Virus record (IMG/VR): IMGVR_UViG_3300038696_000641
Coordinates: 1 to 54,629 of that record
Length of the DNA: 54,629 nt
DNA from: a virus
Strand: one strand, 5' to 3'
Shown here: piece after piece, positions 3,340 to 28,432 of the stretch
How positions within the stretch are numbered: position 1 is the first letter of the stretch
Layout: each line of letters begins with the position of its first letter
Position numbers and translations under genes: made by a program
Notes under the pieces: generated by a model
The model's input: only the letters and a program-made list of their open reading frames with translations
Databases searched by the model: none
Told to the model about the DNA's origin: nothing

Positions 3340-3361
3340 GCGCTGCCTCTTTTGGAGTTGT

Positions 3362-3386: not shown

Positions 3387-3407
3387 CAGATTACAGGTGG
3401 TCAGATG

Positions 3408-6298: not shown

Positions 6299-9200
6299 TT
6301 ATTGCGAGATCATCGGCGCCATATTCCCGCGAATGTAGTCCTCTAGGTTTGTATTGAGCAGCACACCACCCGTCATTCGCTGGCTGGTTCGCAACCGCGC
6401 CCTGTAGGATCGCATGATCGTATCATCATCAATTCTGTAGGTTGGCGGGTACTTGGCATTGAACTCCTGCATCCGGCGCAAGGCGCGCTTGCTGATAGGC
6501 TCGCCTTCGCGCATGTATCGCGTGATATCTGAGAGGATTGCTCTGCGCTCGTCCTGAATGGCAGTTTGCATGTTCATCATGCGCCGGTTGGTCTCGTACC
6601 GCTCACTGACGCGGGCCGGTGAGAAGCCAATGGCCTGCACGACTGCATCATGCGCCGAAACGTCATCGAGCAGCGGATCGCCTTTGTAGGTCGTCACGCC
6701 TTCATTGACATACCGGACAGATCGCATTTGGTCGCGGATCGCTTTGGGCACCATCAATTCTGCGCCACGCCAAACCTCGCCGTCGGCCACCAAACTGACG
6801 CCGCGCAGCATATTCAAGCCGATTGCGGGCACAGCACCGAGAAGCTGGTCAACCATGTAGTAATAGGCGTCCCTGCCCTCCAACTGCCGATTTGGGCTGC
6901 GGAACCAAAGCTCGGGCATACCAATCCGCGCGGTCATATCTGTGCCGGTAAGGGTGCCGGGTACACCTTTGAGGATCATGCCGCCTGCGCCGGTCCCGAA
7001 CAGGCCAACAATCGCGCCTTTAAGCTCTTCTTCGGCCTCGTCGGAACCGCCGTCAAAGAACATACCCGCCAAGAGCATCGTTAGGGCATAGCCCCATGTG
7101 CCGGTGATCCCCGCGTGCAGCATCATCGAGCTTGTGATACCAATCAACTGCGTACGCGCCTGCTTGCGCACCTCTGGGCTTTCCCCCTTAAATGCTTGGT
7201 GCGTATCGCGGAAAAGGCGATAGAGCATGTTCACCTGAAACTGGCGAAAGACGAAGGCCACGCGGGTCCAGTCGTCCTGCATGAAGCGCGGACGGGACCA
7301 GTTTTCATAGTTAAAGTGCGTATCCCACGTCAGATCACCAGCTTTCTTCACGGCGGCTTCCTGATCCATTCCCGAATTTTTCGCCATCCGGTAAGCGGCA
7401 AGGAATGTCACCTCACGGTTCAGGCGCTCGGCATGGTGGAACAGGAAAGAAATTGGCCGCATGACTTTTTCGCGCACGGGTGAGTATTGCACGCCGCCGT
7501 CTTGTATTCCGGCAAGATCGTGCGACTCGCTTTTGTCCAGCGCGCCAGACAAATAGGCTTGCTGCAATGCTGCCCGTTCATCGTCTTTCAATCGGCCACT
7601 TGTCAGCGCGCCTCGGCTCCACTCTGCGTCCCCTTTGGAAAGACCCGCTGTGAAGTCTGCCAGCGCACCAGTCAGTGCCTTTGATGCCTTGGCGACCGTC
7701 GCACCTTTGATGCCGGCAACCAAGATCGGGATGCCGACAACGGTTGTCTGGGTCAGGTTTACCACCGCCGCCGCCGGTGTCAGGCCGAGATACCAGACAA
7801 ACGCGCCAGACGTCGCCCAGGCGCTCCACTGCGCGCCGGTGGGGTTCATCGACCAATCATGGCGTTTTTGCATTTCATTGGCGATTGCACCGGCCCGCGT
7901 TGGGTCAGGCGCGTTCTTCGCCTCACGCCGCGCATTTTCAACGTGCTTTGTCAGGTCCATGGCATGCCGCAAGCGTGTCAACTGGTGCGCGCCGTGGAAC
8001 ATGCGGCTACCAAACGCTTTGATCGCGTCCCTGTCGAAGCCGGGTACGCCCTTGCGGTGGATATTGGCCTTGCGGACCGAGAATGAAGGCAGGGTTTCCA
8101 GATACCTCTGGTAGATTGCATCGAGGATCTGGCCGTCCATAGCGACTTCGCCCAGTGCCTCTGCAATATCGGCCACAAAGTTGGGATCAACGAACCGGCT
8201 GACGTCATCTTCGGGCTTCATCACGCCCTTTTCGACCACAAGCCCCTGATCCTGCATCTCCGACGCAATGCGCTGCTGTGCGCCCGCCGTGGATGCCCGC
8301 TCAAAGTGAACCAGCTTGCCCTTGGCGTCCCGCGCCGCGACAAAGAATTGCCCAAAGCGCATCAGCGGGAAGTAGGGCCCGTCGATCCGGTTGCTTTCAT
8401 AGGTCAGGCGCATCTTGCGAATACGCGCGTTCCGGCTGAACTCAAGCATCTTGATATCTTGGTTGTACCGCGACCGCGCCTTCTTGCGCGCCTGCGTTGC
8501 CTCAGCGCCCGTCAGGCCGTCTTCAATGATCTGCTGCAACTCGCCTTCATACCGCGCCTTGAGGCGTGAGGATTGCAATTCCATGGCCTTGGCCACCGCA
8601 TCAACCATCGCGTTGATCAGATCTTCATCGAAAGCCCGATAGCTATCGCGCGCCTTGCGGTAGATATCCTGCATGGCCTCTGGCAACGCATTGAACTTCT
8701 GCTGCATAGACGCATGGCTGCTGCGCTTTTCTTCCACGAAATTCATATATTTGCCGGTGGTCATGTCGGCGGGCCGCTTGGGCCGCTTAAACTTCTCCGA
8801 TGGGTCCATTCCCTCAATCGTGGATTCGTGCATCAGATCGTGCAGCTTTCTGCCGTTCTCTTTGTCCTTGGCGTAGTGACCCTGCCACTCCCGCGCCAAC
8901 ACATCGGCCTCAGCGTGCATTTCCTGCCGCTCCGCCGTCATTTGCCGCATGCTCTGAACCCACTTGGCCGCAGACGGCAGGGCCTTGCCCAGATCACGGA
9001 ACAGCACTTCGCCCGGCACAAGCGCAAGCGAGTTGTTCTTATCGCTGGAAGCCATGGCGTTGGTAAGAAGGTTGCTGACGAAACTGGCCTCTTTCTTGTC
9101 CAATGCCGCATCGGTCTTTGCAGCCTTGGGCGACCACATCTTTGAGATAGACGCCATCAAGGCTGGGTTGTCTGCCGGATCAGCGTTGACCGTATCGAAC

Positions 9201-12200
9201 GTGCCCGATGGGTCTGGATCACGCCCGCCGACTTCGCCTGACCGCACCCGCTCAAAGACTGACGCCGCAGTGTTCATGCCGTTACCTGTCAGGACATTGA
9301 TGATTGCATCCAGAATGTCCTTGAGCTTCTGCATGGCACCGCGCTCCGCTGCCGTCAGGCCGGTATCACGCCCGTCCGCCCACTCGCGGTACATCTCCGC
9401 CACGATTTCCTCGATCTTTGTGGCCTCGGACTTGCCTGCATAGAACTTTTCGACCTGTGCGCGCAGCCGCTTGTTCTTGCGCGCCGCCGCAACAAGTGTG
9501 CGCCATTCCTGTTTGGTGAATGCCCCGTTTTCGCCACCAAACACGTCTTTGCTTCTCAGCGCATGAATGACCTCATGGCGCGCAATGCCCAATGGTCCAT
9601 CCGGTGCCGCCATGGACACGCCGATCACACCGTCAAGGAAGTACCCATCAAGGCTCTCATAGCCTTTCCCGAAGTTGTAGGCTTCATCGTTGAGCGTCAG
9701 CGCAATGCGGCCGCCGGTGGCTTTGCCCACTTCGCGCTCGATCTGGCGCACCGTCTTGTTGATATCGCGCTTTGCTTGTGTCGCGTCTTGGAATGAAGCG
9801 GTCGACGGCTTGGACTGTGATGCACGGAAGTTAGCGCCGCCATCATCATCGAGACGCATTTCCATTGCGTCTTTCGGTGCTGGCGCGCGATCTGGCGCGA
9901 CGGCCTGAGCAACAGCTTCAGCATCATAGATGTTCAGCACGCTCCAATTTGACGTCTGATTGCCTTCATCATCCTTTGTGGCGTTCTCTTGCGCCTCAAT
10001 GATGACAGCCTCACCGGTATCCATGTTTTCTGCTTCAAAGATAGCAATCCGGCCTGTTTTATCAGTCCCTTCAATGCGTCGCGTGCCATTAGGCGCACCC
10101 CAGTCAGATACATACGTCTGGCCAGCGTTCTTGAACTGGATGTTCTCAGTAATTGGTTGGGCTGTATCGTCAGCAATAAGATCGCGCCCTTTGTCATCGC
10201 GTGCAGCAAAGTAGTTTTCGCCAAGCGCGGCATTCTCAGACGCAAACTTGACTTCCTCGACACGCACCAGCGCAGACAGGCGGGCAAGGCGTTCTTCAGC
10301 GTCAATTACCTTTGAACGGTCTACGCCAACATCGAGCAGGCTTTGCATCTGTGGTTTCAGCTCGGCGTGCCGGTTTTGCTCCTTGCTAAAGCGATTTGCT
10401 GCGGCTTCGGCCCGCATAGCAATGTTTTCCGGCGACAGCGCGCGCAACAGCTTGTCCGACTTTCTGAAGTCTTTGGCGGTTATGGAGAAATCATCAGAAA
10501 TGGAAATTTCGTAATCTGCGTTGGGCGGCATCAGGAACGAACGATATCTTACCGCGCCAGTTTGTTGTTTGTCAGCCATCATCGCCACAGACCATCCACC
10601 GCCCATGGCGATGTTGAACCGCTTTGGTTCGGAGTATGTGTTTTCTTGAGCGTCCTTCAGAACATCGTATACTTTGCGCTCCCACCCGCCACTAGGACGG
10701 TCGGTCCAACGTGTCGGGGCAGTTGGCATTTCCGGCAGTTTTTCTTGCTCTTTGCGTGGCTTGCCCTTGTTTCGCTCTCGGATTTCGTCGGCCAGCGCCT
10801 CAAGGCGGGCCTTCTCTTCCCGATACGCGCCTGCTTGAGCGTCCCAGTCGGCCAGGTAGCTGTCAGCGCCATCACCGATCTTATCAACGGAAAAACCTGC
10901 ATAATCATCTGCACGCTCTTTCAGCACACGCTGCCTGCCATCATAGGACTTCATGAAATCCTTGGCTTCGGACAGGTTCCGCAGCTTTGAAGCAATTTCG
11001 GCGCGGGCATTATCCCGGTCTTTCTCGGCCTGCATTTTTTGGAGGAAGATTTCCTTGCCCGTCGATTGCGCCATGAACTCTGCGTATTGGTCGGCGTCAC
11101 CACCTTCTTCAACAATGGAATCGGTAGCCGCATTCATAAACGTCTCGATTGCGGATGCCTTCCGTTCGAGCACCTGCCACTGAACAACGTCAGCGGTTTG
11201 CTCAGTCGAATAGGCGATGATTTCCACTTCAAAATTGTCGGGATCGGCCTGATAGAACTCATTGCCTTGCCGAATAATGCGGCCTTCACGCTGCTCCATA
11301 TCTGATGGACGCCATGGCGCATCGATGTGGTGCAACGCCACCAGCTTCTTTTGCGCGTTTGTACCGGCCCCCATCTTCTGCGTTGATCCAAGAAGCACGC
11401 GGACACGACCTTCATTGACGGCCTCAAAGAGTGCGTTTTTCTGAATGGTGGTGTTGTAATCATGGATGAAGGCAATCTCGTCTTCTGGAACACCCTTTTC
11501 GATCAGCGCTGCGCGCATGTCGTCATAGAACGAAAAGCCGGTGTCTGCCGTGAACATGGATGCCGCGGCATCTTGTGCTGCTTCGCTTTCCATAAATTCA
11601 GTCAGGCTGTCACGCTTCCGTGTCGTCGTGTCGAGGTCATCAATTGCATTTTCGATTTCACCGAGAAGATCGCCCCATATTTCAGCGTAGGTTTTGCCTT
11701 CGCTTTGCTTCAAGCGTGCAGTCAAGTCCGAACCTTTGACGCCAAGCTTCTCATATGCGGACTTTATCACGCGCTTTGCGTCACGTTCCGCAGCCTTGGA
11801 TGGCGCGCTCATGTCGCAGAATACCATCTGCGCGCCTTTGCGCTCTTTGTTCTCTTCCCAAATGCGGAACACTTCTGCTGACGATCGGTCGACCTTCGAT
11901 CCTTCTTCGCGGCCCAGTGTTGGATCGATTGTACGGATATCAACGGACGCCTTGCGCGCGTCTGTGAGTACCCACAAGGCGTTATCGACGGACATATAAT
12001 CCTTGTTGCTCTTGTTTGCCTTGATACCGGCCATGCGCATCACAAGGTATCTGACAAACTCTGTCATTTTCGGCGTCGGTGGCGCCAGACTGATCCTGCG
12101 TGCGCCACCCTTGATTTTGGGTGTCGGGAACCGCGTTGAAACCTGCTTTGCTGGGTCTGGCTGGGCCGCGTTACGCGCCTCCATTTGCTCGGTATACATG

Positions 12201-15200
12201 CGCTCCACGTCAGGCCGCATGACGATATCGCTGAATGAGCGGTAAAGCTGGGACAGCGGGCCAAGGTTGATCATGCCGGACATGATGTTGCGCTCTTTGA
12301 GCTGCATCGATGCCGTGTATTCAAACCGGCTTTCATCCTGAATGAAGCCCGCCTTCCAAGCGTCAAAGCTGCCAATGCCCATAGACTTCAAGGATTCTGG
12401 TATCAGGTACTTCATCATCGAGTAGATTTCGACCAGTGAGTTAGAGATTGGTGTGCCTGTCAGGAAAGCGACACCGGACCCCTGTTGTTCCTGCAATGTG
12501 CGAACCTTCATCAGCATGTCAAACGCGCGCTGGCTGCCGCCAGGGGGGTTCATGCCGACAAGCCGCGAGGCAGTGGTCGTGTATTCAAGGTTCTTGAACA
12601 GGTGCGCCTCGTCAACGGCGAGATAATCAACACCCAAGTCCTTCCATCCAATGATGGAACTGTCCGCCTTTTCGGCCAGCTTGTCATTGAGCTCTTTCAG
12701 CTTGTCGGTCAGTTTATTGAGGCGTGACCCCATCTGGCCTACGCTTCTCCTGCTTTGTCCGCTGGCTCTTGCTTCCTGCATGGCGGCATTGAGCTCTTCA
12801 ATTTGCTCATTGAGATACTTGCGCGATGTGTCTGCATCATTTTCGATCTTTGTGAGCTGCGAGTGACCAATGATCACGGCATCATAGTCGCCTGTCGCGA
12901 TACGGTTGATCAGCTTCGAGCGATTGGCCGGCGCAAAGTCTTTCTCGGTTGGCACAAGAATGTTGGCCGCTGGGTAAAGCTCAAGCCATTCACGGCCCCA
13001 CTGGCCAGTCAGGTGGTTTGGAACCGCGACAACAGCTTTGCGTGTCAGGCCCATACGCTTGCGCTCCATGATCCCTGCAATAGCCGTGAACGTTTTGCCT
13101 GCGCCGACAACGTGATGAAGCAACGTCACCTTGTCTTGGATCATGCGCCATGCGCCATTCTTTTGACTGTTGCGAAGATCAATCTCTGGCGAGTTTCCGA
13201 CCATGCGCAGATAGCGCACCCCTTCATACTTGCGCTCCGTGACCACGTTCATTTTTGCATTGAAGGCATCGATAACCATGCCTGCCCGCTCAGGATTGGC
13301 ATAAGCCCATTCGGGAAACTCTTTTGACATGCGCTCGTATGCGGCGACGGCCTCTTTCGTGGCTTCTTCGTTTTTTACCCGCCTATCACCTTCGGGCGTT
13401 CTGATTGTGTCATATACGACCGGTATCTTGCCTTTGATCGCGTGCTCAAAAATACGACCTGCATCCATGCGCTCGGTCGCAAACTGCTGCCCGAACTCTG
13501 TAAGAGCACCGATCGACCCTGTTTCGACCGAAGCCATGCCAACGGTTTCCTGAATGCTCACTTTCGCGCTGGGGTAGCCCAAGGCTTGCAAGAATGATGA
13601 GAACACCTCTTTTGGTATCCACAACGACCGGATCGATGGTGTGATTTGGTCCTGTCTTTTTGCGGGCGGCATTGCTTTGTTAAGGTGTGGCACATTCTGA
13701 TACATGCCCGCGCTTTCCGCGTCCTTAATCCGCTCCGCCAAGTTTCCAGACAGATAGACCTCTGCAAGCTCATATCGCCCTGTTTTGGGGTTCTTGAAGG
13801 CCATCGGGTCTTGCCCTGCCGTCATTTCCTTTACAACGTCTTCGGTCGATTTCCCTGACAACTCTCCGATTAGGATAGGATCAACATGCCCGCGCTCTGC
13901 CATGGACACATGCAGGCCATCTGCGACGCTTTCCACGCTGTCCGGCATCTTGTGCGGGTAAATCACGCGCTTGCTCAGGATCGGCGCATCTTTGGCCGTT
14001 TCATCATTGACGCCCTTCTTTGCGGGCTTGTAGCCAATCTCCAATGCAAGCTCTGTTCCCACATCGCCCCGCAGAACAGCCTCGTTCTTTGAATTGTTGA
14101 GGTATCCATGCGCCTTTTTGAATTTGCGATACGTTTCACGCAGGGTCCGTCGTTTGCCTTCGAGGATCTGCGGCTCGGCGTCGGCGCGCTCAAGTCCGAT
14201 CAGCTCTTTGGTCTTTTGGCGTAGATCAAGCATAGCGGACAGACGTTGGAAACCATCTGAACCCAGGCGCTTCCGATTCACCTGCTTCTCATAAGTCTCA
14301 AGAGAAGACATAGCCTCCTTGGTGGGCTTTTCCGCAAAGAGAAGGTTGGACAGGTTGTCAGCCATTGCTGCTTCATACTTGGCCTTCTGGGGCATCGGCT
14401 CACTGGCCAGATCGATCAAGCCTGCATCTACGGCGGCATTCTTGGCGCGCTGTTCGATGTTGATCCGGTCCTCAAGCGAAACCTTGGAACGTGCTTTCTT
14501 GGCCGAAATTAACGCGCGGACCTCTTGCACAAGGCGGCCCTTTGCCTCGGCTTCATCCTGCCAGAACGTGTCTTGTGTGACTTCCTCAACGAATGATCCG
14601 TCTCCATCGTTCCGACCGCGTAACACCTTGCCTTTGGCGTCGAGCATCATCTTACCATCGGCAAGCGTCGATGACGTGTCCTGCGCAGTGGTTGCCGCCT
14701 CAAGCGCTTCTTCACGGCTAGGAAGGGTGGCAGTGATACTATCAATCGCCTGATCCAGCGATGCCTGCATATCGCGGCCATCATCATGCAGGGTAAATTC
14801 ACCCTTGCCATTCGGATCGCGCCCACCGGCATACATGGTCCCATCCATGGCCGGACGGCCCAGCATCATATCTGGGTTTGCCGCAAAGTAGCTGTTGATG
14901 CGCGTCCCGTTCGGGCCTTCGACGCCGGTATCGAGCCAGCTTGTGTCGCCCTCGCCTTCGCCTGCTTTGCGTTTCTGAAAAAACACAATGTCGGTTGTGA
15001 CTTGCGTGTTGGCGTTTGCCTCAAACGCTGTGTTCGGAAGGCGGATTGCGCCTAGGAAGTTAAAATCAGGCGCAATGCCGCGACGTGCATCACTGTTGGG
15101 TGTGTCGAGGAAGCGGCTTGTGACCACCATGCTCATGATCCCGCCTTCGCGCAAAAGCTGGCCAGTCTTTGCAATGATGAAGTTGTGAACCTTCATCTTG

Positions 15201-18200
15201 CCCAGATCGGGGTGCATCTTCTTGTTGCCTATTTGCTCCGCGCCAAATGGCGGGTTGCCGATAGCCACATCAAAGGTTGCGCTGCGGAATGGCGCATCCT
15301 GAAAGCCAGTACCGTCAAAGACATTGGCTTGCGGGTACAGGTTCTTTGCGATCATGCCGGTGATCGGGTCGAGCTCGGACGCATACCATTCGGTTTTGGC
15401 TGACAGGTCCGCCGGTTGCAGGCCCAAGAAATTGCCCGATCCGATTGTGGGCTCCAATGCGCGACCACCATCAAAGCCGAAGTTGCGCATGGCGCGCCAC
15501 ATCGCCTTAACCACGACACGCGACGTATAGTGCGCGTCATTGGTGGAACGCATGGCAGCAACGTACTGCTCGCCGCTCAATAGCTGTTTCAGCTCGGCCT
15601 GTGCCTTGCCCCACTGGGTGTTGGTTCCCTTGTGCTTTTCGTCAAAGAGGGTTTTCAGGCCACCCCAGCCGACCCAACGGGCAAGAACGTCTTGTTCTTC
15701 GCGCGTGGCGTAGCGGTTTTCACTTTCGAGTTGAAATACAAGGCGCAACGCCGCCATGTTGGCGGCCAGCTTTTGACCGTCAGTCCCTTCGCCCAGGGCG
15801 AAGTCGTCGGAAATTACATAGTTCGGTTGAGGCGTGCCATTGGGGGCTGATCCGGTGCTGTCAGCACTTGATCCCGGACCGTCGCCCACGCTTCCGCCCT
15901 CGTCATCGACGGCAGGCTCTCCCGCGCCGTCTTCATCATCTTCTCGGCGTCCATCGTTATCCGATCCACTGTCAGGCTGTCCGTCTCCGTCCATTCCTTG
16001 TTCGGTGACTTCGCCTGTAGGTTCTCTTTGACCGCCATCTTGATTTGTAGATTGTTCATCTGGGCCCTCATTTGCGGCCTGATCGGCCTCGCCTGCCTCT
16101 GGTGTATCCGATTCCGTGTCATTTTGCGAGATGGTTTGCTCTTCGGCCAGTGCTGCGCGCACCTCGGCCATAACAGCGGACGCATCATCCATGCCTGAGA
16201 TGTCTTCACCGGCTAGGTCCATGTTGTCGCGCACATGGTTGTAGGCCGCGCGCATGGGCTCTTGTGCCTCACGCATGGAAAGGCCGGTTGTTTCTGCGAA
16301 GTCACGCAGCATTTGGCCGAATTTCTTTGCGCCGCCTTCGATGTAAAGGGCGACAAGCTCACCGCCAAGGATGATGTATTCAGGATCAAGGCCGCTGCTG
16401 GCCTGATTGCGTACCTTTGCGGCAAGTCGTGCTTTCAACTCGGCCGCACGATCCTGCTTTTCCTGTGAAAGACCGGATAGAAGGCCGCTGGTTGCGGGTG
16501 CTGTATCCGCGATAACTGGGCTGTTTGAGGTGTTTTCTGTTTGCGTTGCCGCAGGTGCTTCCGCCCCCTGATCCGTAGCTTTCTCGCGGTCTTGCAAGAT
16601 ATCTGCACGAGCAGAATAGATCCAACCCAGCAAGTCAGGACGTGCCGTTTCGATGTAATCTGTCAGTCCGTCGAGCATGTCGGCGGGCGCGGCCTCAAGC
16701 ACGCGATACACGTCTTGAGAGCGCAGCTTATCAACGCTGTCGGCCGCAACGTTGATCAAGGTTTCATTGGTCGGCTTCGGCTCTGGCGCGGCCTTCTTCT
16801 TAAACGGGAAGTCCAGATTGCCAGAAACCGGCTTGGTGCTGTCGAAGTTGCTGTCAGACGTGCTTTCCAGCCATGCCTTGAGCTGGGCAACGCTGCCCTC
16901 GAAGAATGCGCCAATACGCTCGTCAGCGCGACCATCATTGAAAGCGCCACGATAGGCTGTCAGTGCGGCCCCGCGCGAAGGGAAGCCAACCATGATCTTG
17001 TGTTCATCAAACTTGCCGCTGTCCGCGTCCGCCTGGTCGATCCACATGACGTAATCAGCATCGGGTGCCTCGCCCATGTAGAAATCAACATGCTCGCCGT
17101 CTGCACCTTCGGTCTGCTTGAAATAGCCATAGTGCGCGGGCATGGTCACGGACCACGTTTCGCCGTCCTGATCGGTCCCGCTGCGCTCACTGCCCTTGGC
17201 GTTCTCGATAGTCAGGTTCATGCCATTCCAGATGATATGGCCCTTTTGATAGTTTCCGGCTTCTTTCTGCCCGTCCGTTGGGTTCGGGTCGGCATCAGCC
17301 GCCGCTGCATCGACATCTTCTTTGGCGGGTGGCGTGAGGGGCTGCCCAATACGCTTGCGACCGCCCCGCTCACCACGATTGGCCTGCTCTGCGGGATCAT
17401 CAAAGAGCATCGGCACACCGTCGCGGTATGTCAGGGTAGGATCGCGCTCGATCATGTCTATGAGGCTGCCAAGTTGCTCGTCACGCAGGTTTGCCGACGA
17501 TGCAATCAATGCGCCCATATCGCGCGCCAGTGTTTCCAGCTTTGCGCTGTTGATTGAGAGACGCGCTATTGCGCCATCCAGCTTGGTCACTTGCAGCTGC
17601 TTTGGTGTGACCTTCAGGACCGTCCCATACCCGGGCAACACGTCGCCTTCTTTGGCGTTGGCAAGCGCGATATTGCCAAGGCTCAAGTCGCTGCTGTCAC
17701 CAATGCCGTTTACCGGCGCATCGACGCGGGCTTTGCTTATGCCCAGCTTGCGGTTGGGGTAATCAACAGAACCAGAACTGTCCTTTACTTGATTTTTGCC
17801 AGTATCGTTATTATCTCTCTTTGTGCCGCGCCCGGGCAGCGGAGCCATGCTGCCCCATAATTCACTGAGAGTGCCTGTAAACTTTTCAGCGAGACGCGGC
17901 GCTCCTTTATCGTATGAACCAATTAACCACGCGCCTGATTGCCCATCCCAGTCAAGGCGAACACCGGCACGATCTGAGTCGCTTTCAAGCTGAATGCGAT
18001 TTTCGGTTTTGCTTGTAACTGTCATGCGTGAAATACGCCCTTGCAGGTCATCCAGAACCTCTGGGTGCCACGCAATCAACTTAGATAGCCCGTATCCATC
18101 ACTACGGCGCGTTCCGGCCTTGCCCCAAACGAGCGATATATCCCCTACATCGCGGTGATTAAGCGCGCCTGTTGCCTCACCAGTCTGCCTGCGCTCCAGC

Positions 18201-21046
18201 TCTAGTGCAGCCCCCTTCCAGTCCCCTTTATAACCAGAAATAACAGGTCCGAATGGGCCTGTTGCGTTGTCTGACGCATTAGATGCACTTGGCGTTTCTG
18301 CCGCAAATTTGTCTGCGCGGTCCTTGCGAATGAACGTCCCGCCCTGAAACGCAAAGCCGCCGGTATCGAACCCGGTAATATCGGCAGGCTTGAACCCTTT
18401 GAGGACATAGCCTTTCAGCTTCTTGCCCTTGCGGGTGGTGTATTCGACCTCGCCTGCTGCAATGGCATCGGCCACCGCCTTGCGCAGCGGGCTGGTTTCT
18501 TGATCAGCGGGAGCGGTTTCGGGCTGATCCGGCGCAACGTCTTGTTCTGGCGGCGTCTCGTTCTTGATCGGTTCTTGATCCGGCGCGGTGTCCGGCTCAA
18601 ATTGTTCATCAAGAGCCTGGCGGATTGCTGCATCAAACGATCCAAACTCCGAGTGCCCGTTCGGGGTTCCGTTTTCGTCAAGGTAAGTCAGGCGGAAGCC
18701 ACCCGGCTTTGACATATCCGGACCCGCGATTGCCCGCTGGCCTGTGCTTGAAGTAAGCCGCACCGGCTTTCCGCTGGCCGATAGTGTTTTTGCAATTTCT
18801 TCCTTACGGGCAATGCTTTCCCTCGCCTTGGCCCGCAAGTCTTGCAATTCACTTGTCGGTGTTTGTTCTTGATCCGGCGCGGCTTCTGCGACCGGTTCGG
18901 GGCTTGGCGGGGTTTGCCCGCCAGTCAGTGTCTCTTCTGGTGCTGCGGCCTCTGGATCGCCTGTAAATGCGTCTTGGGGTCTGCTGGCCTCTAGTGCGGC
19001 TACGTCAACGTCAGGCGCGTCCTGTGCCTGTTGACGGACGCCAATAAACCCGCCGCCAAAGGGCTCGACGGAATAGCCTTCGCCAAGACGGCTTTCAGCA
19101 ACCCGTTGCGTTGGGAAAATGACTGGATCGCCATTATCGTCAGTGAACATGGCTTCATCAATGCGGCTGGCTTCTTCGCTGCGCTGGCGCTCTTGTTCGC
19201 GCGCATTTTCGGCAAGCTCGGCCACGTCATCGCGCGTCTGCGAAAGCGTGCGCTGCAACGTCGCCATATAGGCGTCGTCCGGCGTCATGCCTTCGTCACG
19301 CACCATTGCGTCCACGGTATCCATGAACTCGTCAGGATCAACGCCTTGCGGGATTGGTGGCAGGTTTTCGACTGGCGCTTCTGGCGCTGGCTGTGCGTCT
19401 GGTGTTTCTGGCGCGGCCACATCTGGCTGCTTGGCAAGTGCTGGTGTGACGATCACAACGCCATTGGCAATGTCTGCCAATTCAACGTCGGCATCTGTGC
19501 CGTCCGCCCCGCGGAACTGCGCAAAGCCTGACGCTGGGTCTTCACCCAAAAATGTCGCGTCCATCGGGTCGCTGATTTCGCCCGTCTCTTGGTCAACGAG
19601 CTGGATCTGCACCGGCTGGTCTGCCCGAAACCCACCCAAAAGGGCATCAGGCGCGTCTGCGGCCACATCTGACAGCGGTGAGGGTGTTGCCGGTTGCGTT
19701 GCGTCGCCGGACGGTCCCTGCGGTGACAGCGCGTCACCGGTTGGCGTTGGTGCCCCCTGCGCCCGCTGGGAGGAGGTAGCAGGCATTGGGGGCACCGCAC
19801 CAGAACCCGACGCCGTGCCGGGAGGAACACCAACGTCGCCGGTGCCTGGTTCGTTAAGAAGGTCGATGTTTGTTTCTTGGTCATTACTGTCATCGTCGCC
19901 GTTGCGGTCATTACTGTCATCGTCGCCGTTGCGGTCATTACTGTCATCGTCGCCGTTGCGGTCACGGTATGCCTTGGCACCACCGCCGACACCGCCCAAA
20001 GCACCGCCAAGAAGGCCCGCGGCAACGCCAACTTCAATATACTCTTTCACGGCATCTTCAGTATCGAGCGGAAGGCCAGCCTGCATACGTTCGAGCATTG
20101 ACTGCCCGATTTCAGTTGGCACCTCCATCAAGACGCCTGCCCCAGCGCCCTTTCCAGCCCCAACCAGAACGCGCTTTGTAAGTATACCGCCACCTTCAGC
20201 TGCTATCTTGGCGCCGACCCCCAGGCCTGAAACGGTAATTAAGTCAGTCACAACATCTAAGGCCGCTTGAGGGACAGCGGTAAGCAGGGCGGCTCCTTCA
20301 TTGACTTGAACAGGAGTGCCGGCTTCTTCGGCCACGTCTTTCTGTCGCTCTCGGTTTTGCCCATAAAAGAACGGAAGGTTTACAGCCAGACCGCCAATGG
20401 CTGCGCCTACAGCCGTCCCGACAACTGGGACAACCGAACCAATAGCGCCACCAGCTGCTGCGCCAGCCAACGTCGAACCCATTTGTGGTACTTGCTGACC
20501 GGCCACCTCAGATGCATACCTGCCGAAAGAGCCAAGGCCATCGACGTCATCAAGTCGTGTGAACCCTCGTGACTTCTCTTGTGCTTCGGCTTCGTTTCTA
20601 TCGGCTACCTCGCGACCGTATTCCTCGACCCCATCAAGGCCAAGCATGCCGCCAACGCCCTCCACGGCAGAGCCGTAGCTTTGCTGGATCGTATCGGCCC
20701 CAACGCCAATCGCCTTGCGAAAACCACCTTCCGGCTGCGGTTCTTCTCTTGGCGTGCCATAAATCTGCGCACGAAGGTTTGTGGCATAGTCCCCGAATGC
20801 CCGCCCCTCGTCTTCCCCGAACAACTCTGAGACAATCGCATTTGGGTCTTCACCGGCTTTGAACCGTGGGCCGACTTGCTGTCCGCGCTGGCGAGCAATT
20901 GCCAAAAGCTCTTGTGGCGTCTGCGCCCCTTCAAGCTCGGCGGATGCGTAAAGCACCTCAATCGGCGTCCCTGTTTCAATGGCAATGTCTTCAAGTGCGG
21001 TTTTTGTTGAAACGGGATCAGTACCGAAGATGGGCATATCGCTCAT
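6299..21046 (-). CDS. Giant polyvalent protein: N6-adenine methyltransferase, SNF2 helicase, zincin and LPD domains
   Basis: One uninterrupted frame encodes 4,915 residues. Gly/Ala-rich helices near residues 180-360 look membrane-active. An Asp-rich repeat (about 363-390) and a long Pro/Glu/Asp linker follow. Residues about 1262-1400 resemble the pyrophosphatase-like domain of phage polyvalent proteins. A methyltransferase has ALEPTIGSGNF (1863-1873) and NPPF (1931-1934). The SNF2-type helicase has GAGKT (2648-2652), DEAH (2812-2815) and QREGRIIRQG (3252-3261). A zinc peptidase motif HEVIH is at 3824-3828, with a Glu-rich helix after it. Near 4400 a hydrophobic stretch resembles LPD38. Similar giants in Bcep22-like phages and P1 DarB are virion proteins; injection with the DNA and protection against host restriction are inferred. 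The gene fills 27% of the window. Confidence 0.92.
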   Translation of the reverse strand: MSDMPIFGTDPVSTKTALEDIAIETGTPIEVLYASAELEGAQTPQELLAIARQRGQQVGPRFKAGEDPNAIVSELFGEDEGRAFGDYATNLRAQIYGTPREEPQPEGGFRKAIGVGADTIQQSYGSAVEGVGGMLGLDGVEEYGREVADRNEAEAQEKSRGFTRLDDVDGLGSFGRYASEVAGQQVPQMGSTLAGAAAGGAIGSVVPVVGTAVGAAIGGLAVNLPFFYGQNRERQKDVAEEAGTPVQVNEGAALLTAVPQAALDVVTDLITVSGLGVGAKIAAEGGGILTKRVLVGAGKGAGAGVLMEVPTEIGQSMLERMQAGLPLDTEDAVKEYIEVGVAAGLLGGALGGVGGGAKAYRDRNGDDDSNDRNGDDDSNDRNGDDDSNDQETNIDLLNEPGTGDVGVPPGTASGSGAVPPMPATSSQRAQGAPTPTGDALSPQGPSGDATQPATPSPLSDVAADAPDALLGGFRADQPVQIQLVDQETGEISDPMDATFLGEDPASGFAQFRGADGTDADVELADIANGVVIVTPALAKQPDVAAPETPDAQPAPEAPVENLPPIPQGVDPDEFMDTVDAMVRDEGMTPDDAYMATLQRTLSQTRDDVAELAENAREQERQRSEEASRIDEAMFTDDNGDPVIFPTQRVAESRLGEGYSVEPFGGGFIGVRQQAQDAPDVDVAALEASRPQDAFTGDPEAAAPEETLTGGQTPPSPEPVAEAAPDQEQTPTSELQDLRAKARESIARKEEIAKTLSASGKPVRLTSSTGQRAIAGPDMSKPGGFRLTYLDENGTPNGHSEFGSFDAAIRQALDEQFEPDTAPDQEPIKNETPPEQDVAPDQPETAPADQETSPLRKAVADAIAAGEVEYTTRKGKKLKGYVLKGFKPADITGFDTGGFAFQGGTFIRKDRADKFAAETPSASNASDNATGPFGPVISGYKGDWKGAALELERRQTGEATGALNHRDVGDISLVWGKAGTRRSDGYGLSKLIAWHPEVLDDLQGRISRMTVTSKTENRIQLESDSDRAGVRLDWDGQSGAWLIGSYDKGAPRLAEKFTGTLSELWGSMAPLPGRGTKRDNNDTGKNQVKDSSGSVDYPNRKLGISKARVDAPVNGIGDSSDLSLGNIALANAKEGDVLPGYGTVLKVTPKQLQVTKLDGAIARLSINSAKLETLARDMGALIASSANLRDEQLGSLIDMIERDPTLTYRDGVPMLFDDPAEQANRGERGGRKRIGQPLTPPAKEDVDAAAADADPNPTDGQKEAGNYQKGHIIWNGMNLTIENAKGSERSGTDQDGETWSVTMPAHYGYFKQTEGADGEHVDFYMGEAPDADYVMWIDQADADSGKFDEHKIMVGFPSRGAALTAYRGAFNDGRADERIGAFFEGSVAQLKAWLESTSDSNFDSTKPVSGNLDFPFKKKAAPEPKPTNETLINVAADSVDKLRSQDVYRVLEAAPADMLDGLTDYIETARPDLLGWIYSARADILQDREKATDQGAEAPAATQTENTSNSPVIADTAPATSGLLSGLSQEKQDRAAELKARLAAKVRNQASSGLDPEYIILGGELVALYIEGGAKKFGQMLRDFAETTGLSMREAQEPMRAAYNHVRDNMDLAGEDISGMDDASAVMAEVRAALAEEQTISQNDTESDTPEAGEADQAANEGPDEQSTNQDGGQREPTGEVTEQGMDGDGQPDSGSDNDGRREDDEDGAGEPAVDDEGGSVGDGPGSSADSTGSAPNGTPQPNYVISDDFALGEGTDGQKLAANMAALRLVFQLESENRYATREEQDVLARWVGWGGLKTLFDEKHKGTNTQWGKAQAELKQLLSGEQYVAAMRSTNDAHYTSRVVVKAMWRAMRNFGFDGGRALEPTIGSGNFLGLQPADLSAKTEWYASELDPITGMIAKNLYPQANVFDGTGFQDAPFRSATFDVAIGNPPFGAEQIGNKKMHPDLGKMKVHNFIIAKTGQLLREGGIMSMVVTSRFLDTPNSDARRGIAPDFNFLGAIRLPNTAFEANANTQVTTDIVFFQKRKAGEGEGDTSWLDTGVEGPNGTRINSYFAANPDMMLGRPAMDGTMYAGGRDPNGKGEFTLHDDGRDMQASLDQAIDSITATLPSREEALEAATTAQDTSSTLADGKMMLDAKGKVLRGRNDGDGSFVEEVTQDTFWQDEAEAKGRLVQEVRALISAKKARSKVSLEDRINIEQRAKNAAVDAGLIDLASEPMPQKAKYEAAMADNLSNLLFAEKPTKEAMSSLETYEKQVNRKRLGSDGFQRLSAMLDLRQKTKELIGLERADAEPQILEGKRRTLRETYRKFKKAHGYLNNSKNEAVLRGDVGTELALEIGYKPAKKGVNDETAKDAPILSKRVIYPHKMPDSVESVADGLHVSMAERGHVDPILIGELSGKSTEDVVKEMTAGQDPMAFKNPKTGRYELAEVYLSGNLAERIKDAESAGMYQNVPHLNKAMPPAKRQDQITPSIRSLWIPKEVFSSFLQALGYPSAKVSIQETVGMASVETGSIGALTEFGQQFATERMDAGRIFEHAIKGKIPVVYDTIRTPEGDRRVKNEEATKEAVAAYERMSKEFPEWAYANPERAGMVIDAFNAKMNVVTERKYEGVRYLRMVGNSPEIDLRNSQKNGAWRMIQDKVTLLHHVVGAGKTFTAIAGIMERKRMGLTRKAVVAVPNHLTGQWGREWLELYPAANILVPTEKDFAPANRSKLINRIATGDYDAVIIGHSQLTKIENDADTSRKYLNEQIEELNAAMQEARASGQSRRSVGQMGSRLNKLTDKLKELNDKLAEKADSSIIGWKDLGVDYLAVDEAHLFKNLEYTTTASRLVGMNPPGGSQRAFDMLMKVRTLQEQQGSGVAFLTGTPISNSLVEIYSMMKYLIPESLKSMGIGSFDAWKAGFIQDESRFEYTASMQLKERNIMSGMINLGPLSQLYRSFSDIVMRPDVERMYTEQMEARNAAQPDPAKQVSTRFPTPKIKGGARRISLAPPTPKMTEFVRYLVMRMAGIKANKSNKDYMSVDNALWVLTDARKASVDIRTIDPTLGREEGSKVDRSSAEVFRIWEENKERKGAQMVFCDMSAPSKAAERDAKRVIKSAYEKLGVKGSDLTARLKQSEGKTYAEIWGDLLGEIENAIDDLDTTTRKRDSLTEFMESEAAQDAAASMFTADTGFSFYDDMRAALIEKGVPEDEIAFIHDYNTTIQKNALFEAVNEGRVRVLLGSTQKMGAGTNAQKKLVALHHIDAPWRPSDMEQREGRIIRQGNEFYQADPDNFEVEIIAYSTEQTADVVQWQVLERKASAIETFMNAATDSIVEEGGDADQYAEFMAQSTGKEIFLQKMQAEKDRDNARAEIASKLRNLSEAKDFMKSYDGRQRVLKERADDYAGFSVDKIGDGADSYLADWDAQAGAYREEKARLEALADEIRERNKGKPRKEQEKLPEMPTAPTRWTDRPSGGWERKVYDVLKDAQENTYSEPKRFNIAMGGGWSVAMMADKQQTGAVRYRSFLMPPNADYEISISDDFSITAKDFRKSDKLLRALSPENIAMRAEAAANRFSKEQNRHAELKPQMQSLLDVGVDRSKVIDAEERLARLSALVRVEEVKFASENAALGENYFAARDDKGRDLIADDTAQPITENIQFKNAGQTYVSDWGAPNGTRRIEGTDKTGRIAIFEAENMDTGEAVIIEAQENATKDDEGNQTSNWSVLNIYDAEAVAQAVAPDRAPAPKDAMEMRLDDDGGANFRASQSKPSTASFQDATQAKRDINKTVRQIEREVGKATGGRIALTLNDEAYNFGKGYESLDGYFLDGVIGVSMAAPDGPLGIARHEVIHALRSKDVFGGENGAFTKQEWRTLVAAARKNKRLRAQVEKFYAGKSEATKIEEIVAEMYREWADGRDTGLTAAERGAMQKLKDILDAIINVLTGNGMNTAASVFERVRSGEVGGRDPDPSGTFDTVNADPADNPALMASISKMWSPKAAKTDAALDKKEASFVSNLLTNAMASSDKNNSLALVPGEVLFRDLGKALPSAAKWVQSMRQMTAERQEMHAEADVLAREWQGHYAKDKENGRKLHDLMHESTIEGMDPSEKFKRPKRPADMTTGKYMNFVEEKRSSHASMQQKFNALPEAMQDIYRKARDSYRAFDEDLINAMVDAVAKAMELQSSRLKARYEGELQQIIEDGLTGAEATQARKKARSRYNQDIKMLEFSRNARIRKMRLTYESNRIDGPYFPLMRFGQFFVAARDAKGKLVHFERASTAGAQQRIASEMQDQGLVVEKGVMKPEDDVSRFVDPNFVADIAEALGEVAMDGQILDAIYQRYLETLPSFSVRKANIHRKGVPGFDRDAIKAFGSRMFHGAHQLTRLRHAMDLTKHVENARREAKNAPDPTRAGAIANEMQKRHDWSMNPTGAQWSAWATSGAFVWYLGLTPAAAVVNLTQTTVVGIPILVAGIKGATVAKASKALTGALADFTAGLSKGDAEWSRGALTSGRLKDDERAALQQAYLSGALDKSESHDLAGIQDGGVQYSPVREKVMRPISFLFHHAERLNREVTFLAAYRMAKNSGMDQEAAVKKAGDLTWDTHFNYENWSRPRFMQDDWTRVAFVFRQFQVNMLYRLFRDTHQAFKGESPEVRKQARTQLIGITSSMMLHAGITGTWGYALTMLLAGMFFDGGSDEAEEELKGAIVGLFGTGAGGMILKGVPGTLTGTDMTARIGMPELWFRSPNRQLEGRDAYYYMVDQLLGAVPAIGLNMLRGVSLVADGEVWRGAELMVPKAIRDQMRSVRYVNEGVTTYKGDPLLDDVSAHDAVVQAIGFSPARVSERYETNRRMMNMQTAIQDERRAILSDITRYMREGEPISKRALRRMQEFNAKYPPTYRIDDDTIMRSYRARLRTSQRMTGGVLLNTNLEDYIRGNMAPMISQ
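19879..19959 (-). repeat. Three tandem 27-bp repeats inside the giant gene
   Basis: A 27-base unit is present three times without change and then breaks off. It encodes the nine-residue unit DDDSNDRNG. The D-x-N-x-D spacing resembles calcium-binding loops of dockerin or thrombospondin type-3 repeats. Perfect identity at DNA level suggests recent expansion, so copy number may vary between isolates. Confidence 0.85.
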
Positions 21047-21146: not shown

Positions 21147-23165
21147 TTACCCGCCAAACGTCGGGACTGGCTGCCCGTTTGATCCGCCCTGCACAACGCC
21201 GACACCACTTGCAGCACCCGGCTGTGGCTGTGGCAGGTCGGGCCGTGATGATCCGATGTACTGGCGGACGGCTCTGTCTGCTTCTTGCCGCTGTTCCGGC
21301 GTGAATTGCTGCATCGTGGCACGGTCAAAAAACCCATCTGGGAACAGCAGCTCCATTGCCGCATCATAAGCTGAGGTAAACTCCTCGGCATCGGAGACTT
21401 TCTGGGCGAGTGCTGCATTAACACGCTCTCTCTGGCGCTGGTATGCGGCAAGCGGCGACCCCCAGTCGGAAATCCCATTGAGGACGTTTTGCATCCCCAT
21501 GTATTCCTGCTCGATGGTTTCGCCCGACTCCTTGTTGGTCATGGACAAAACAGCACCAACCGGTTGGCCGTTGGCGCCTTCGATCAAGCGCGTACCGGCG
21601 CGGTCCACTTGCCACAAGCCATCTGGCTCGTAGGCTCGCACCATTGCATCCAATGAGGCACTGAATGCCGTAGTATCTCCCGCATTCGCGGCGACGGTCG
21701 CGCGCCCCATGTGCGTGGCACCCTGGCTCGCTTGTTCGCCGTCCAGAAACTCGCGATATTCCCTTGCTTCGGTCAACATCCCCTTTGACACCAAGGCTGC
21801 GACCACTTCGTCACCGCGCGACAAGATATAATCAAGGCTGCGCTTTCCACCCTCATTCAGTGATCGCTGTGTGGCGCGCCCACTTTGAACAGCGCTACCA
21901 TCTGACATTGCGTAGGAGCGCGTGCCTTGCGTGACGGCATCCGTGACAGACATGCTGGCTGGATATTGCAGGCGCGGCTTTCCGTCATTGCTTTGCCCGG
22001 GCTTGGTGCGAAGCTCTGGGGTTTGGGGGTCAGGGTTTTGCTCGCTGGCTGTGGCGTTGCGGGCCTGCTGGGCTTGCGCAGCCGCGCCTGCTGTATCACC
22101 GGCGGTAATCTTTGCTCCCATGCTGTCACGGGCATCAGTGATCCCGTTTTGGCGGCGCAGGTTTGCCGCTTCAATCGCGGACTCCATTGCGGCGCGTTCT
22201 GCGGCGTCACCACCGGCGTTCGGGTCTGTGTAGGCTTTGCTTCCACCGCGAAACGCGCGGTTTACGGGGGCTCCTGCATCTGGGGAAAAGAGCGAGATAC
22301 CTTTGGCAAAACCTTGACCAAGATAGTCTGTGGCAGCGCCAAGCGCATTGCCCGCCCCACGCACGCGCTCGTCAAAATACTCAGCGATCCCTAGCGCGCG
22401 GCCAACTGCATTCCGCTGTATGGTCAGCGCCTCGCGCATGGCGTCATCGATATCGGGATCGAGGAGGCGCTGTGTCAGCTCTTCGTACTTGGATACCTGT
22501 TCCGGGTCTGCATCGGCTGGGATTTGCGGCTCTTGCGCACTACCCTGCCCGCGCGTGCGCTGGTTGGACTGCTGCATTTCCTGATCTGGGCTAACGCGCG
22601 ACGAACCTGTGCCGCGGCGGCGCTGATCTGTGCCTGTCTCCGATGATTGTTGACCATCTGGCCGTTGATCTTGCTCCATCGCATTGCGCACGGCTGGCGT
22701 ATTGAGCTCGGTTGCGCCCATAGTTGGAGGCTGATAGCCGTTACTGGCTGCGCGCCGTGCCTCTTGATCTGACTGCGCCCGTTCACGCGCCGCTACACGC
22801 TGCGCCTGATTTTCAAAGGCCTCTCTTGGGTCAGTCATGCCAAGAGGATCGTCAAAACGATCAACGCGACGTGTGGTGCCATCAACGACTTCTGGCGCGG
22901 CATCTGGCGCGGCAGGCTGTGATACCCGCATTGGTGCCGCCGTTGGTGGCCGCATATCGGTCGCACCGCCACCGCGCTGGCCTTGCTGTAAGCGAGAAGG
23001 CACATCGAGGCGCGACGTTTCACCCGTTGGGTCAGGATTGCGGCGCGGATCAGCACCCGGCCCTGTAGCGAGAACCTTTTGGATTGCGGCCTTCATGACC
23101 TCTTGCGGCGTGCCTTGCGGAAAAGACGCAGTTGAGCCATCTGGCAGTCGGACTTGAATTGTCAT
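21147..23165 (-). CDS. Putative internal virion (ejection) protein, 672 residues
   Basis: No catalytic motif is visible. The N-terminus (IQVRLPDGSTASFPQGT, then a helix) resembles a short head seen on other phage structural proteins. Residues about 40-220 are low-complexity, rich in Gln, Arg, Pro and Asp. The C-terminal part is mostly helical and ends with a Gly/Pro-rich tail. It lies between the giant gene and two other probable internal proteins, in the place where short-tailed phages encode ejection proteins. Function is inferred from position only. Confidence 0.6.
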   Translation of the reverse strand: MTIQVRLPDGSTASFPQGTPQEVMKAAIQKVLATGPGADPRRNPDPTGETSRLDVPSRLQQGQRGGGATDMRPPTAAPMRVSQPAAPDAAPEVVDGTTRRVDRFDDPLGMTDPREAFENQAQRVAARERAQSDQEARRAASNGYQPPTMGATELNTPAVRNAMEQDQRPDGQQSSETGTDQRRRGTGSSRVSPDQEMQQSNQRTRGQGSAQEPQIPADADPEQVSKYEELTQRLLDPDIDDAMREALTIQRNAVGRALGIAEYFDERVRGAGNALGAATDYLGQGFAKGISLFSPDAGAPVNRAFRGGSKAYTDPNAGGDAAERAAMESAIEAANLRRQNGITDARDSMGAKITAGDTAGAAAQAQQARNATASEQNPDPQTPELRTKPGQSNDGKPRLQYPASMSVTDAVTQGTRSYAMSDGSAVQSGRATQRSLNEGGKRSLDYILSRGDEVVAALVSKGMLTEAREYREFLDGEQASQGATHMGRATVAANAGDTTAFSASLDAMVRAYEPDGLWQVDRAGTRLIEGANGQPVGAVLSMTNKESGETIEQEYMGMQNVLNGISDWGSPLAAYQRQRERVNAALAQKVSDAEEFTSAYDAAMELLFPDGFFDRATMQQFTPEQRQEADRAVRQYIGSSRPDLPQPQPGAASGVGVVQGGSNGQPVPTFGG

Positions 23166-26363: not shown

Positions 26364-26717
26364 TTATCTGCGGATCGCCCATGTGAGCGTCGGGTGTGTT
26401 TCGTTTGGCACGTTGAATGTGGTGGACCCGTCACCTGCGCCGTAAGTTGTGCCGATTGCTCTGAACAGGATCACGTATGCTGACCGAGACACGGCGCGAC
26501 CATCTGCGGGCACCCAGCCCTTCGGGACTGTACCTGCAAAGAGCTGCATTGCGCCGACGGCAGGCGTCAACTCCGCCACAACGGACAGGATCGTGTCGTT
26601 CAATCGCTGCTCGTCGGACTTGCGCATAGCGGCTTGCAGGGCGGCTTTAGGCCGTTCCCCGAGCAGCACACTCAGCTTTTCCAACATGCCAGGCGGAAGT
26701 CGTTCCATGTCGGGCAT
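26364..26717 (-). CDS. Phage tail collar domain protein
   Basis: This 117-residue protein contains the tail-collar signature: VPKGWVPADGRAVSRSAYVI, then LFRAIGTTYGAGDGSTTFNV and a Pro-Asn turn (about residues 64-105). Such domains form the distal part of fibres or a short-tail collar. The N-terminal 50 residues are helical. Its start overlaps the stop of the 571-residue gene by one base, and the fibre gene follows after 15 bases. It is short, so it may work as a separate subunit. Confidence 0.85.
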   Translation of the reverse strand: MPDMERLPPGMLEKLSVLLGERPKAALQAAMRKSDEQRLNDTILSVVAELTPAVGAMQLFAGTVPKGWVPADGRAVSRSAYVILFRAIGTTYGAGDGSTTFNVPNETHPTLTWAIRR

Positions 26718-28432
26718 CAGGCCACCGCCAATTCTTCGAGCGTCTGCCCGATCGATATGGATGTAACCTCGGCGCTGCCTTCGATTTCAATCTGCCATTC
26801 CTTTGAACGGAAGCCGGAGGGCAATCGTTGCGGTGTGTTGAATTTGTCCGTTTGATGCACAAGCTTGCCGTCTGCGAATATTCGCGTCGTAAGAACGGTT
26901 TGGGCAGGCGTCGTGTCGGCCTCGACCATGATCGCGGCAAATGAAACCGGCGAAGGGGTGTAGAATGCCTTGGACCGCCATCTGTATGTCGTTGTCGGGC
27001 GCGAGCGATTGTCGAATTGCCGGACTTCTGTGGTGTTGGACAAGAAGTACAGATTGCCATCGGCAGGATTGAGGAAGAATGCGTCTGGTGAACCTGCAAA
27101 TTCGGGATCAGTGCGCAAGAAGTATGGCTGCTCTCCGGTCAGGTCGATAAACCCAATGGCGTTGATTGCCGCTTTGGTGAGAGGCGAGCCACCATCGTAA
27201 TTGACGAAGCCAAGCAATGATGAACTCGGGCCGCCGCCGTTGTAGCTGTCGGGGTTTGCGGGATCGAGGACAGCTTCACCCCCGTTGAGGCTATCAATGG
27301 CACCATCGGAATATCCAAAGGCGTAGCGGCCGTCATAGCTGGCCGCGAACATGGTGCTGGGGGATAGCTCGCGCCAGTCGTCACGGGTAAAGAGGTTGCG
27401 TGATGCGAGCTGCGTCCCACTTGCCGAGATGACAATGAGCCCGTCTGCGGACGGATACGCCGCGGCATAGCCCAGATCCACGACGCCACGACGGGACACA
27501 CACGGCAGGTTGGCTTCCATGCGCTGCATGATCATGTTTTCGGGTGCTGTGCCTTGAATGATATAGGGGGTGGCTGTGGTCAGCACGGCCAGCGTTGATC
27601 CAAAGGCAGACAGCGCCACAATGTCGTGGTCGACCGTCAGGCTGTACTTTTGCGGCCATGCATGCGGAATGTAGGGCTCGCAAAAGAACACTTCACGCCC
27701 AGAAAAGCCTGCCATCATGCCGTTTGACATGGCAGTTAGCCCGTCGAGGGTGTCAACCGGCGGGTCAAAGTCGGCAGACGGCAGCACTTCTTGCAGCGGG
27801 TTGGCCTCAAGATCATGCGTGTAGGTGGTGTTTGCGACCGGTATCTCTGCTACGAAATACAAATCTGTGATGCCGGAAGCGCTGGTCTGCGAGCGATAGA
27901 TGCGGCGACGGTCGATTCCTCTGCCAGTCGGCGCGGCGTCCATGTCTGACAATGATACTGTGTTGCCCGGGCTCCATAGGATTGCGTCCGAGGCGGGCGA
28001 CGGGGCGCTTTCTTCGTCAAACTCGGTGACGAATGTGTATGCGTAGACGAAACTCTCTGCCAATTCGGTATCGAGGGTTCCCACCATGGCTGCTGTTGGT
28101 GCGTTGGCAGGTGCCGCAAGGGCCAAGGGATAGTCGGCATCATTGGCGATCACACGCGGGGCACCTGTCAGGGTCGTGTAGTAGAGGCGATCTTGCGCGA
28201 CGGGGCCCGTGGCGATATCGGCCTGCGCCGCAAATGATAGCCATGTGTCATTGTGAAGGTAGATCGTGGACGCTGCGCTTTGCAGGGTTTCAATCAAGGC
28301 GCTTTCGCGAAACGGTGTTACATTGCCATCATCAAGACGTGCATTGCTCGATACCATGGCGACATTGCCACCCAGAAGGCGGTCTGCGCGCCTTGGGATT
28401 TCGCCTTTGAAGTCTGCAATGCGTATCTTCAT
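26717..28432 (-). CDS. Tail or head-stabilisation protein (beta-propeller-like), 571 residues
   Basis: The protein is rich in short beta-strands and aromatic turns throughout. The start MKIRIADFKGEIPRRADRLL is of a type found in structural proteins of short-tailed phages. The sequence YAYTFVTEFDEESAPSPASD (about 130-149) resembles a fibronectin-like strand pair. Position after two small adaptor genes and before tail collar and fibre genes suggests a role like P22 gp10 or T7 gp12, closing the tail hub. Similarity to either is not demonstrated. Confidence 0.6.
   Translation of the reverse strand: MKIRIADFKGEIPRRADRLLGGNVAMVSSNARLDDGNVTPFRESALIETLQSAASTIYLHNDTWLSFAAQADIATGPVAQDRLYYTTLTGAPRVIANDADYPLALAAPANAPTAAMVGTLDTELAESFVYAYTFVTEFDEESAPSPASDAILWSPGNTVSLSDMDAAPTGRGIDRRRIYRSQTSASGITDLYFVAEIPVANTTYTHDLEANPLQEVLPSADFDPPVDTLDGLTAMSNGMMAGFSGREVFFCEPYIPHAWPQKYSLTVDHDIVALSAFGSTLAVLTTATPYIIQGTAPENMIMQRMEANLPCVSRRGVVDLGYAAAYPSADGLIVISASGTQLASRNLFTRDDWRELSPSTMFAASYDGRYAFGYSDGAIDSLNGGEAVLDPANPDSYNGGGPSSSLLGFVNYDGGSPLTKAAINAIGFIDLTGEQPYFLRTDPEFAGSPDAFFLNPADGNLYFLSNTTEVRQFDNRSRPTTTYRWRSKAFYTPSPVSFAAIMVEADTTPAQTVLTTRIFADGKLVHQTDKFNTPQRLPSGFRSKEWQIEIEGSAEVTSISIGQTLEELAVA

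Follow-up and report, generated by a model that had tools for sequence, protein, structure and literature searches.

The giant minus-strand gene of this viral DNA encodes a DarB-like polyvalent protein which, with a probability of roughly 70%, travels in the virion, enters the host with the DNA and protects that DNA, and we find that a conserved scaffold in this family carries exchangeable DNA-modification cores, which is the main addition of the present analysis. The window, by which we mean the whole stretch of 54,629 bases, is an entire IMG/VR virus record classed as linear. Neither the class which the window protein joins, nor its antirestriction reading, nor the zincin hypothesis is new here: Iyer et al. 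defined the polyvalent proteins in 2017, with the methylase-helicase dyad and with DarB as archetype, and catalogued the InPase, PBECR, zincin and LPD39 domains as well as the methyltransferase-helicase dyad (PMC5512222). With that class the window protein shares its multi-domain build and its setting among phage virion genes, while the particular domain combination, the lineage and the quantified exchange of cores on one scaffold go beyond it. Two points seem worth following, namely that the catalytic residues are kept in nearly all relatives and that sister proteins repeatedly differ in their core but have the ends in common.

Positions 6299–21046 are open and free of stops on the minus strand for 4,915 codons from an ATG at 21046, and the plus-strand reading of the same interval has stops throughout. 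The encoded protein has a mass of 535.6 kDa and its gene takes up 14,748 of the 54,629 bases (27.0%), which bears out the length and share given in an initial annotation of this DNA, to which the strand can now be added. The gene is the longest within a minus-strand block of virion genes that comprises the small (37.8–38.4 kb) and large (36.2–37.8 kb) terminase subunits, the portal (33.4–35.8 kb), the major head protein (30.8–31.9 kb), structural proteins (28.4–30.8 kb), an internal virion protein in the capsid/tail operon upstream of the polyvalent gene (phrog_511, 26717..28432), tail-fibre-like genes (25.5–26.7 kb) and an endosialidase-chaperone protein (23.6–24.7 kb). Directly before the polyvalent gene stand two genes of the same strand without a family match (21.1–23.6 kb); one upstream gene of 672 aa (21147..23165, minus strand, no family match) is in its C-terminal part 29% identical to a counterpart at the same place in the phage that we call L018. 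Past the polyvalent gene lie tail genes and those of a diversity-generating retroelement (DGR). The genes of homologues in PEp14, Parlo and SopranoGao are similarly placed in a virion block. At the DNA level, megablast against 50,697 phage records found no relatives of the gene. That a mis-assembly fused separate genes into one frame might be suspected from a linear record which has no end repeats and is possibly a fragment, but homologues of the same length occur in one frame in independently sequenced isolates and the operon is uniformly on the minus strand, and we regard a chimera as ruled out for practical purposes.

The frame matches PHROG 10089, annotated 'DarB-like antirestriction', in five stretches (E=0, 2261.8 bits), the best of them aligning aa 3882–4905 with positions 3636–4637 of the 4647 in the profile. 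All features that follow lie on the minus strand. The N-terminal region (aa 102–372, 19931..20743) matches phrog_6958 'virion structural protein' and includes a Gly/Ala-rich hydrophobic stretch (aa 199–226, 20369–20452); a linker of three tandem acidic nonapeptides (NGDDDSNDR, aa 364–389, 19880..19957) comes after it. An attempt to read the N-terminus as a degenerate SLT transglycosylase was abandoned, since hhalign put the match with the SLT region of the PEp14 type at a probability of 1.5%. The only other strongly hydrophobic stretch, a weaker one, is at aa 4425–4452, and the label 'membrane-active' in the initial annotation is a guess. A PBECR1-like RNase domain (PF18809, aa 963–1047, 17906..18160), absent from the earlier domain list, scores 24.0 bits against a curated cutoff of 27.6 and is 58% identical across 135 aa with Bbp10 of phage BPP-1. 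Bbp10 (2,052 aa) also occupies an equivalent place beside a tail/DGR cassette, but has neither the methyltransferase-SNF2 motifs nor a PLxRFG module. There follow an InPase domain (Pfam, aa 1259–1394, 16865..17272; 3e-47, 160 bits), an N6-adenine methyltransferase (aa 1750–2104, 14735..15799) with an EPxxGxGNF motif I, an Eco57I-type methylase match at aa 1897–1981 and motif IV NPPF at aa 1931 (15245–15256), and an SNF2-type motor (aa 2573–3349, 11000..13330) with GAGKT at aa 2648 (13091–13105), DEAH at 2812 (12602–12613), QREGRIIR at 3252 (11270–11293) and Pfam SNF2 and helicase-C pieces at aa 2861–3261. Among solved structures the closest sequence relatives are RM.BsaXI for the methylase and, for the InPase region, the last 130 residues of a phage portal protein (9b41, E=1e-15). 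A zincin metallopeptidase domain (aa ~3755–3915, 9302..9784) carries HEVIH at aa 3824 (9563–9577) and a likely third ligand at E3879/E3880 (9407–9412). The C-terminus consists of LPD39 (PF18858, aa 3991–4182, 8501..9076; 4e-48, 164 bits) and the PLxRFG module (NCBIfam NF032893 'tail-700', aa 4223–4901, 6344..8380; 741 bits), the family hallmark, with PLMRFG at aa 4227 (8351–8368). The initial annotation had named the pyrophosphatase-like, methyltransferase, SNF2 and HEVIH zincin domains, all of which are recovered here, and an LPD38-like domain, which is not: PF18857 gives no match at E<=0.1, and among 11 aligned proteins LPD39 is found in nine and LPD38 in two. InPase, methyltransferase, SNF2 motor, zincin, PBECR1-like domain and LPD39 thus stand together in one frame, as in a phage-type polyvalent protein.

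The adenine methyltransferase lies N-terminal to the motor with motifs intact, as in DarB, and the DarB-type pairing proposed in the initial annotation is one of homology: blastp against P1 DarB gives E=8e-18 for the methyltransferase and 2e-13 for the motor, and profiles of the relatives give 6e-46 and 3e-57 respectively. P1 DarB (2,255 aa) has the two homologous parts in the same order, but it is half the length, 23–26% identical, without HExxH and without PLxRFG, and has NVPF in place of NPPF. Nearer kin are found in named phages, where relatives of the C-terminal module at <=44% identity occur in PEp14, Pavtok, Stean, POI1126, Mwe-JY07, Skulduggery, PBC5, Parlo, Atu_ph08 and Lastavirus, and 'DarB-like antirestriction' is the existing annotation of most named-phage homologues. 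The PHROG 10089 proteins of PEp14/Pavtok, Atu_ph08/PBC5, POI1126, Lastavirus and Bcep22-like phages, several of them 4.4–5.0 kaa long like the window protein, share with it the methyltransferase-SNF2 core, the C-terminal LPD39 and PLxRFG (with LPD38 in some) and the placement among virion genes, at ~38–47% identity in the C-terminal module and 30–37% in the core; the window protein differs in that no SLT or cell-wall hydrolase is recognised in it and in that its PBECR1 domain lies N-terminal to the InPase. Homologues reach 4,914 aa in Erwinia phage PEp14, 4,877 in Agrobacterium phage Atu_ph08, 4,841 in POI1126, 4,515 in Burkholderia phage JC1, 4,369 in SopranoGao, 3,867 in ZX1, 3,764 in Parlo and 3,640 in VvAW1. 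The window protein is not the largest of its kind, since those of Microcystis phage Mwe-JY07 (4,985 aa) and of L018 (~5,128 aa) are longer; Iyer et al. cite a polyvalent protein of 12,242 aa in a plasmid (PMC5512222).

A whole-protein pattern search in IMG/VR returned a single locus, and the relatives used below were gathered by alignment of the C-terminal module, with 80 of 134 IMG/VR loci and 80 of 90 GTDB-genome loci taken (some prophages are common to both sets). Among these 160 loci the InPase occurs in 79, the methyltransferase in 78, the SNF2 motor in 82, the window-type zincin in 36, PBECR1 in 25 and LPD39 in 140. A look in these relatives for degenerate catalytic residues, which the initial annotation had named as evidence against its reading, did not refute that reading; the residues are near-invariant in 22–71 non-identical homologues per domain, although searches of this kind select for similarity and so under-count degenerate copies. 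In the methyltransferase, N1931, P1933 and F1934 are kept in 68/68 non-identical sequences, and the column of P1932 holds W (NWPF) in 13 relatives, such as L097, L170 and L020, and V in P1 DarB. The motor keeps K2651 in 70/70, D2812-E2813 in 69/69 and R3256 and R3259 in 71/71 (non-identical sequences, gapped rows excluded). In the InPase, D1316, D1347, E1348 and K1350 are found in 70/71 and D1321 in 69/71, and D1316, D1321, D1347 and E1348 would be the four acidic metal ligands. PBECR1 H964, H994, R1017 and R1030 are present in 22/22 homologues, and zincin H3824, E3825, H3828, E3879 and E3880 in 30/30. Across seven pairs of closely related family members, Nei-Gojobori dN/dS lies at 0.07–0.19 for the sampled frame as a whole and at about 0.01–0.16 for single domains. 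The strong selection earlier claimed for the window protein therefore holds for these relatives, where it is purifying, and cannot be measured for the window protein, because the closest C-terminal module is only 67% identical.

Presence in the virion is likewise an observation on a relative. JC1 gp69 (4,515 aa) was detected in purified virions by mass spectrometry with 51 unique peptides (PMC9144972), which for this relative contradicts an absence from virions, the other finding that the initial annotation had named as adverse. P1 DarB resides in the head and carries its packaging signal in the N-terminal 30 residues (PMC9024508). By analogy, expression of the window protein would come late, alongside that of the capsid genes, and the protein would be packed into the head; the N-terminal region at one end of it and LPD39 and the PLxRFG module at the other may serve packaging and ejection, and it would enter the cell together with the DNA, as P1 DarB suggests. 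The SNF2 motor would then travel along the incoming DNA, which the adenine methyltransferase would mark or guard against restriction enzymes, and the expected outcome, to which the homology to P1 DarB and the catalytic conservation point, would be that host type I-like systems do not cut. Most tentatively of all, the InPase might remove pyrophosphate or a signalling nucleotide, PBECR1 might cleave RNA, and the zincin might process the polyprotein or a host target. The fusion of a structurally solved InPase relative to a portal protein counts in favour of this reading. The dependence of P1 DarB on DarA, DdrB, Ulx and Hdf counts against it, and no homologues of these four turned up here, in searches not aimed at them.

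It could also be argued that the protein is mainly an ejection or trans-envelope channel protein in which the enzymatic domains are passengers. Conservation is highest in the PLxRFG module (which also served as query in the searches), 140 of the 160 loci have LPD39, peptidoglycan hydrolase domains occur in relatives (SLT in 4/11, cell-wall hydrolase in 2/11), and the window protein itself has the N-terminal hydrophobic stretch and the phrog_6958 match. We nevertheless consider a channel role rather improbable, for it leaves the purifying selection on the catalytic domains unexplained, no hydrolase is recognised in the window protein, and the window encodes an internal virion protein separately. 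The model of the PLxRFG module (pLDDT 78.5, pTM 0.71) is mostly helical and found no match at E<=0.001 and no Z >5.1 among PDB structures, from which we do not claim a new fold, and PDB profile searches with both modules returned nothing useful.

The exchange of the core is seen most directly in the L018 phage (IMGVR_UViG_640963029_000003), whose protein is the closest relative by its C-terminal module (67% identical) and whose capsid and portal genes have 70–84% protein identity to those of the window. The two giant proteins are 58% identical at aa 1–106 and 77% at aa 1094–1237 (17336..17767, minus strand; no named domain), a region which lies near the exchanged core and is the part most alike in the whole protein. 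The middle of the L018 frame, in contrast, has no DarB-type methyltransferase-SNF2 pair; Pfam recognises there an N6-methyltransferase and then a Strawberry-notch helicase (AAA_34, Helicase_C_4), plus LPD5 and LPD1. The same pair occurs in L003, and in Parlo, ZX1 and Skulduggery a third layout puts the helicase ahead of the methylase. The frames longer than 3,900 aa number 87, and the core is of the DarB type in 74 of them, of the Strawberry-notch type in nine and neither in four; these four near-full-length relatives carry none of the three core types, which counts against DNA protection as the role of the whole and implies that the scaffold is of some use even when it lacks a core. On a tree of the C-terminal module with 65 thinned rows, at least 11 changes of core type are required, all of them by branches with SH-aLRT >=95; a tree of 103 rows with an added 'none' class gives 23 changes, though that class may include unseen cores. 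Sisters with unlike cores are the window and L018, L037 and L108, L170 and L033, and the Klebsiella phages ZX1 and SopranoGao, whose N-termini are near-identical. Recombination may have moved either the core or the ends, between which the tree cannot tell. PBECR1 also varies in position: it lies N-terminal to the InPase in the window protein, immediately ahead of the methyltransferase in rhizobial relatives and beside the zincin in L024. A literature search, with subscription papers mostly outside its scope, found no paper on this core exchange.

Each exchanged core type again has an adenine-methyltransferase motif and an SF2 motor, and because the pairing recurs we take the exchange as the best indication that the enzymatic dyad itself, and not bulk, is under selection. 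This bears on the proposal that the giant protein is a passive shield, coating or bridging the entering DNA and blocking restriction enzymes without catalysis. P1 Dar works only in cis on packaged DNA and according to two reviews shields it by occlusion and does not methylate it (PMC12707154, PMC12602166), a point that we count against our preferred reading, and the NVPF of P1 DarB fits the same proposal. Against it stand the near-invariance of the methyltransferase and ATPase residues in 68–71 non-identical relatives and the retention of both activities in exchanged cores, with NPPF in 9/9 Strawberry-notch-type frames. Given this conservation, enzymatic protection of the entering DNA is favoured over passive protection, and we judge the shield unlikely.

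Enzymatic protection by exchangeable cores invites a wider proposal, in which the N-terminal region, LPD39 and the PLxRFG ends form a standardised virion-delivery chassis, the core is an exchangeable cassette of at least three types (methyltransferase-SNF2, methyltransferase-Strawberry notch and helicase-methyltransferase) whose swapping would probably track host restriction systems, and the ends would act as a general head-packing signal for large enzymes in podoviruses. This has in our estimation slightly less than an even chance. Sister pairs of the ZX1/SopranoGao type make the question of restriction specificity testable in cultured phages.

The zincin domain was modelled with AlphaFold2 from 22 sequences (pLDDT about 80–93). 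The predicted order has a helix and three strands ahead of the HEVIH-bearing helix, with E3879/E3880 on a helix further on, which gives HExxH with a Glu on a following helix in a zincin topology. Foldseek with the zincin and LPD39 model returned a list swamped by helical proteins, and only a second structural aligner ranked zincins top for this part, with middling values: PPEP-3 (Z 6.6) and the lethal factor catalytic domain (6.5) came first, and the MtfA-like 3khi (5.4), PprI (4.0) and ArdC (3.8) further down, of which we take 3khi and PprI to be zincin family members. The domain may be a processing protease or an effector. The initial annotation had suggested release of domains after injection, and the idea that zincins process polyvalent polypeptides comes from Iyer et al. 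(PMC5512222). Cutting of the polyprotein into separate effectors, at assembly or after injection, would be compatible with DNA protection and agrees with the intact residues in all 30 homologues and with the modelled topology. Among 83 relatives with LPD39, however, the 700 aa before it hold the window-type zincin in 27, another HExxH region in 27 and no HExxH in 29, so that a peptidase at this place is common but dispensable; N4 vRNAP, moreover, is packaged uncut (cited in PMC5512222). With the structural scores middling as well, such processing is possible but doubtful.

A complete DGR occupies positions 1625–3538 of the window, with a reverse transcriptase (1625–2710; phrog_1423, 5e-148), a template repeat (2870–2992), Avd (2989–3339; phrog_3206, 4.5e-45) and a variable repeat (3416–3538) assigned to the 3' end of the ORF at 3408–4445, in the same element order as in Bordetella phage BPP-1. 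Differences between the two repeats fall on template adenines in 17/18 cases, and the L018 phage has no DNA match to this region. Away from the DGR, a second tail gene (25467–26348) has a Major-tropism-determinant N-terminal domain (Mtd_N, 6e-14). The nearest genome-contig relatives by the C-terminal module are mostly Rhodobacterales (Falsirhodobacter, Sediminimonas, Rhodobacter, Thioclava and Paracoccus), and the host of the phage is therefore probably within this order. A separate C5-cytosine methyltransferase gene (40811–41983; PF00145, 1e-34) is also present, so that the phage carries a second DNA-modifying enzyme.
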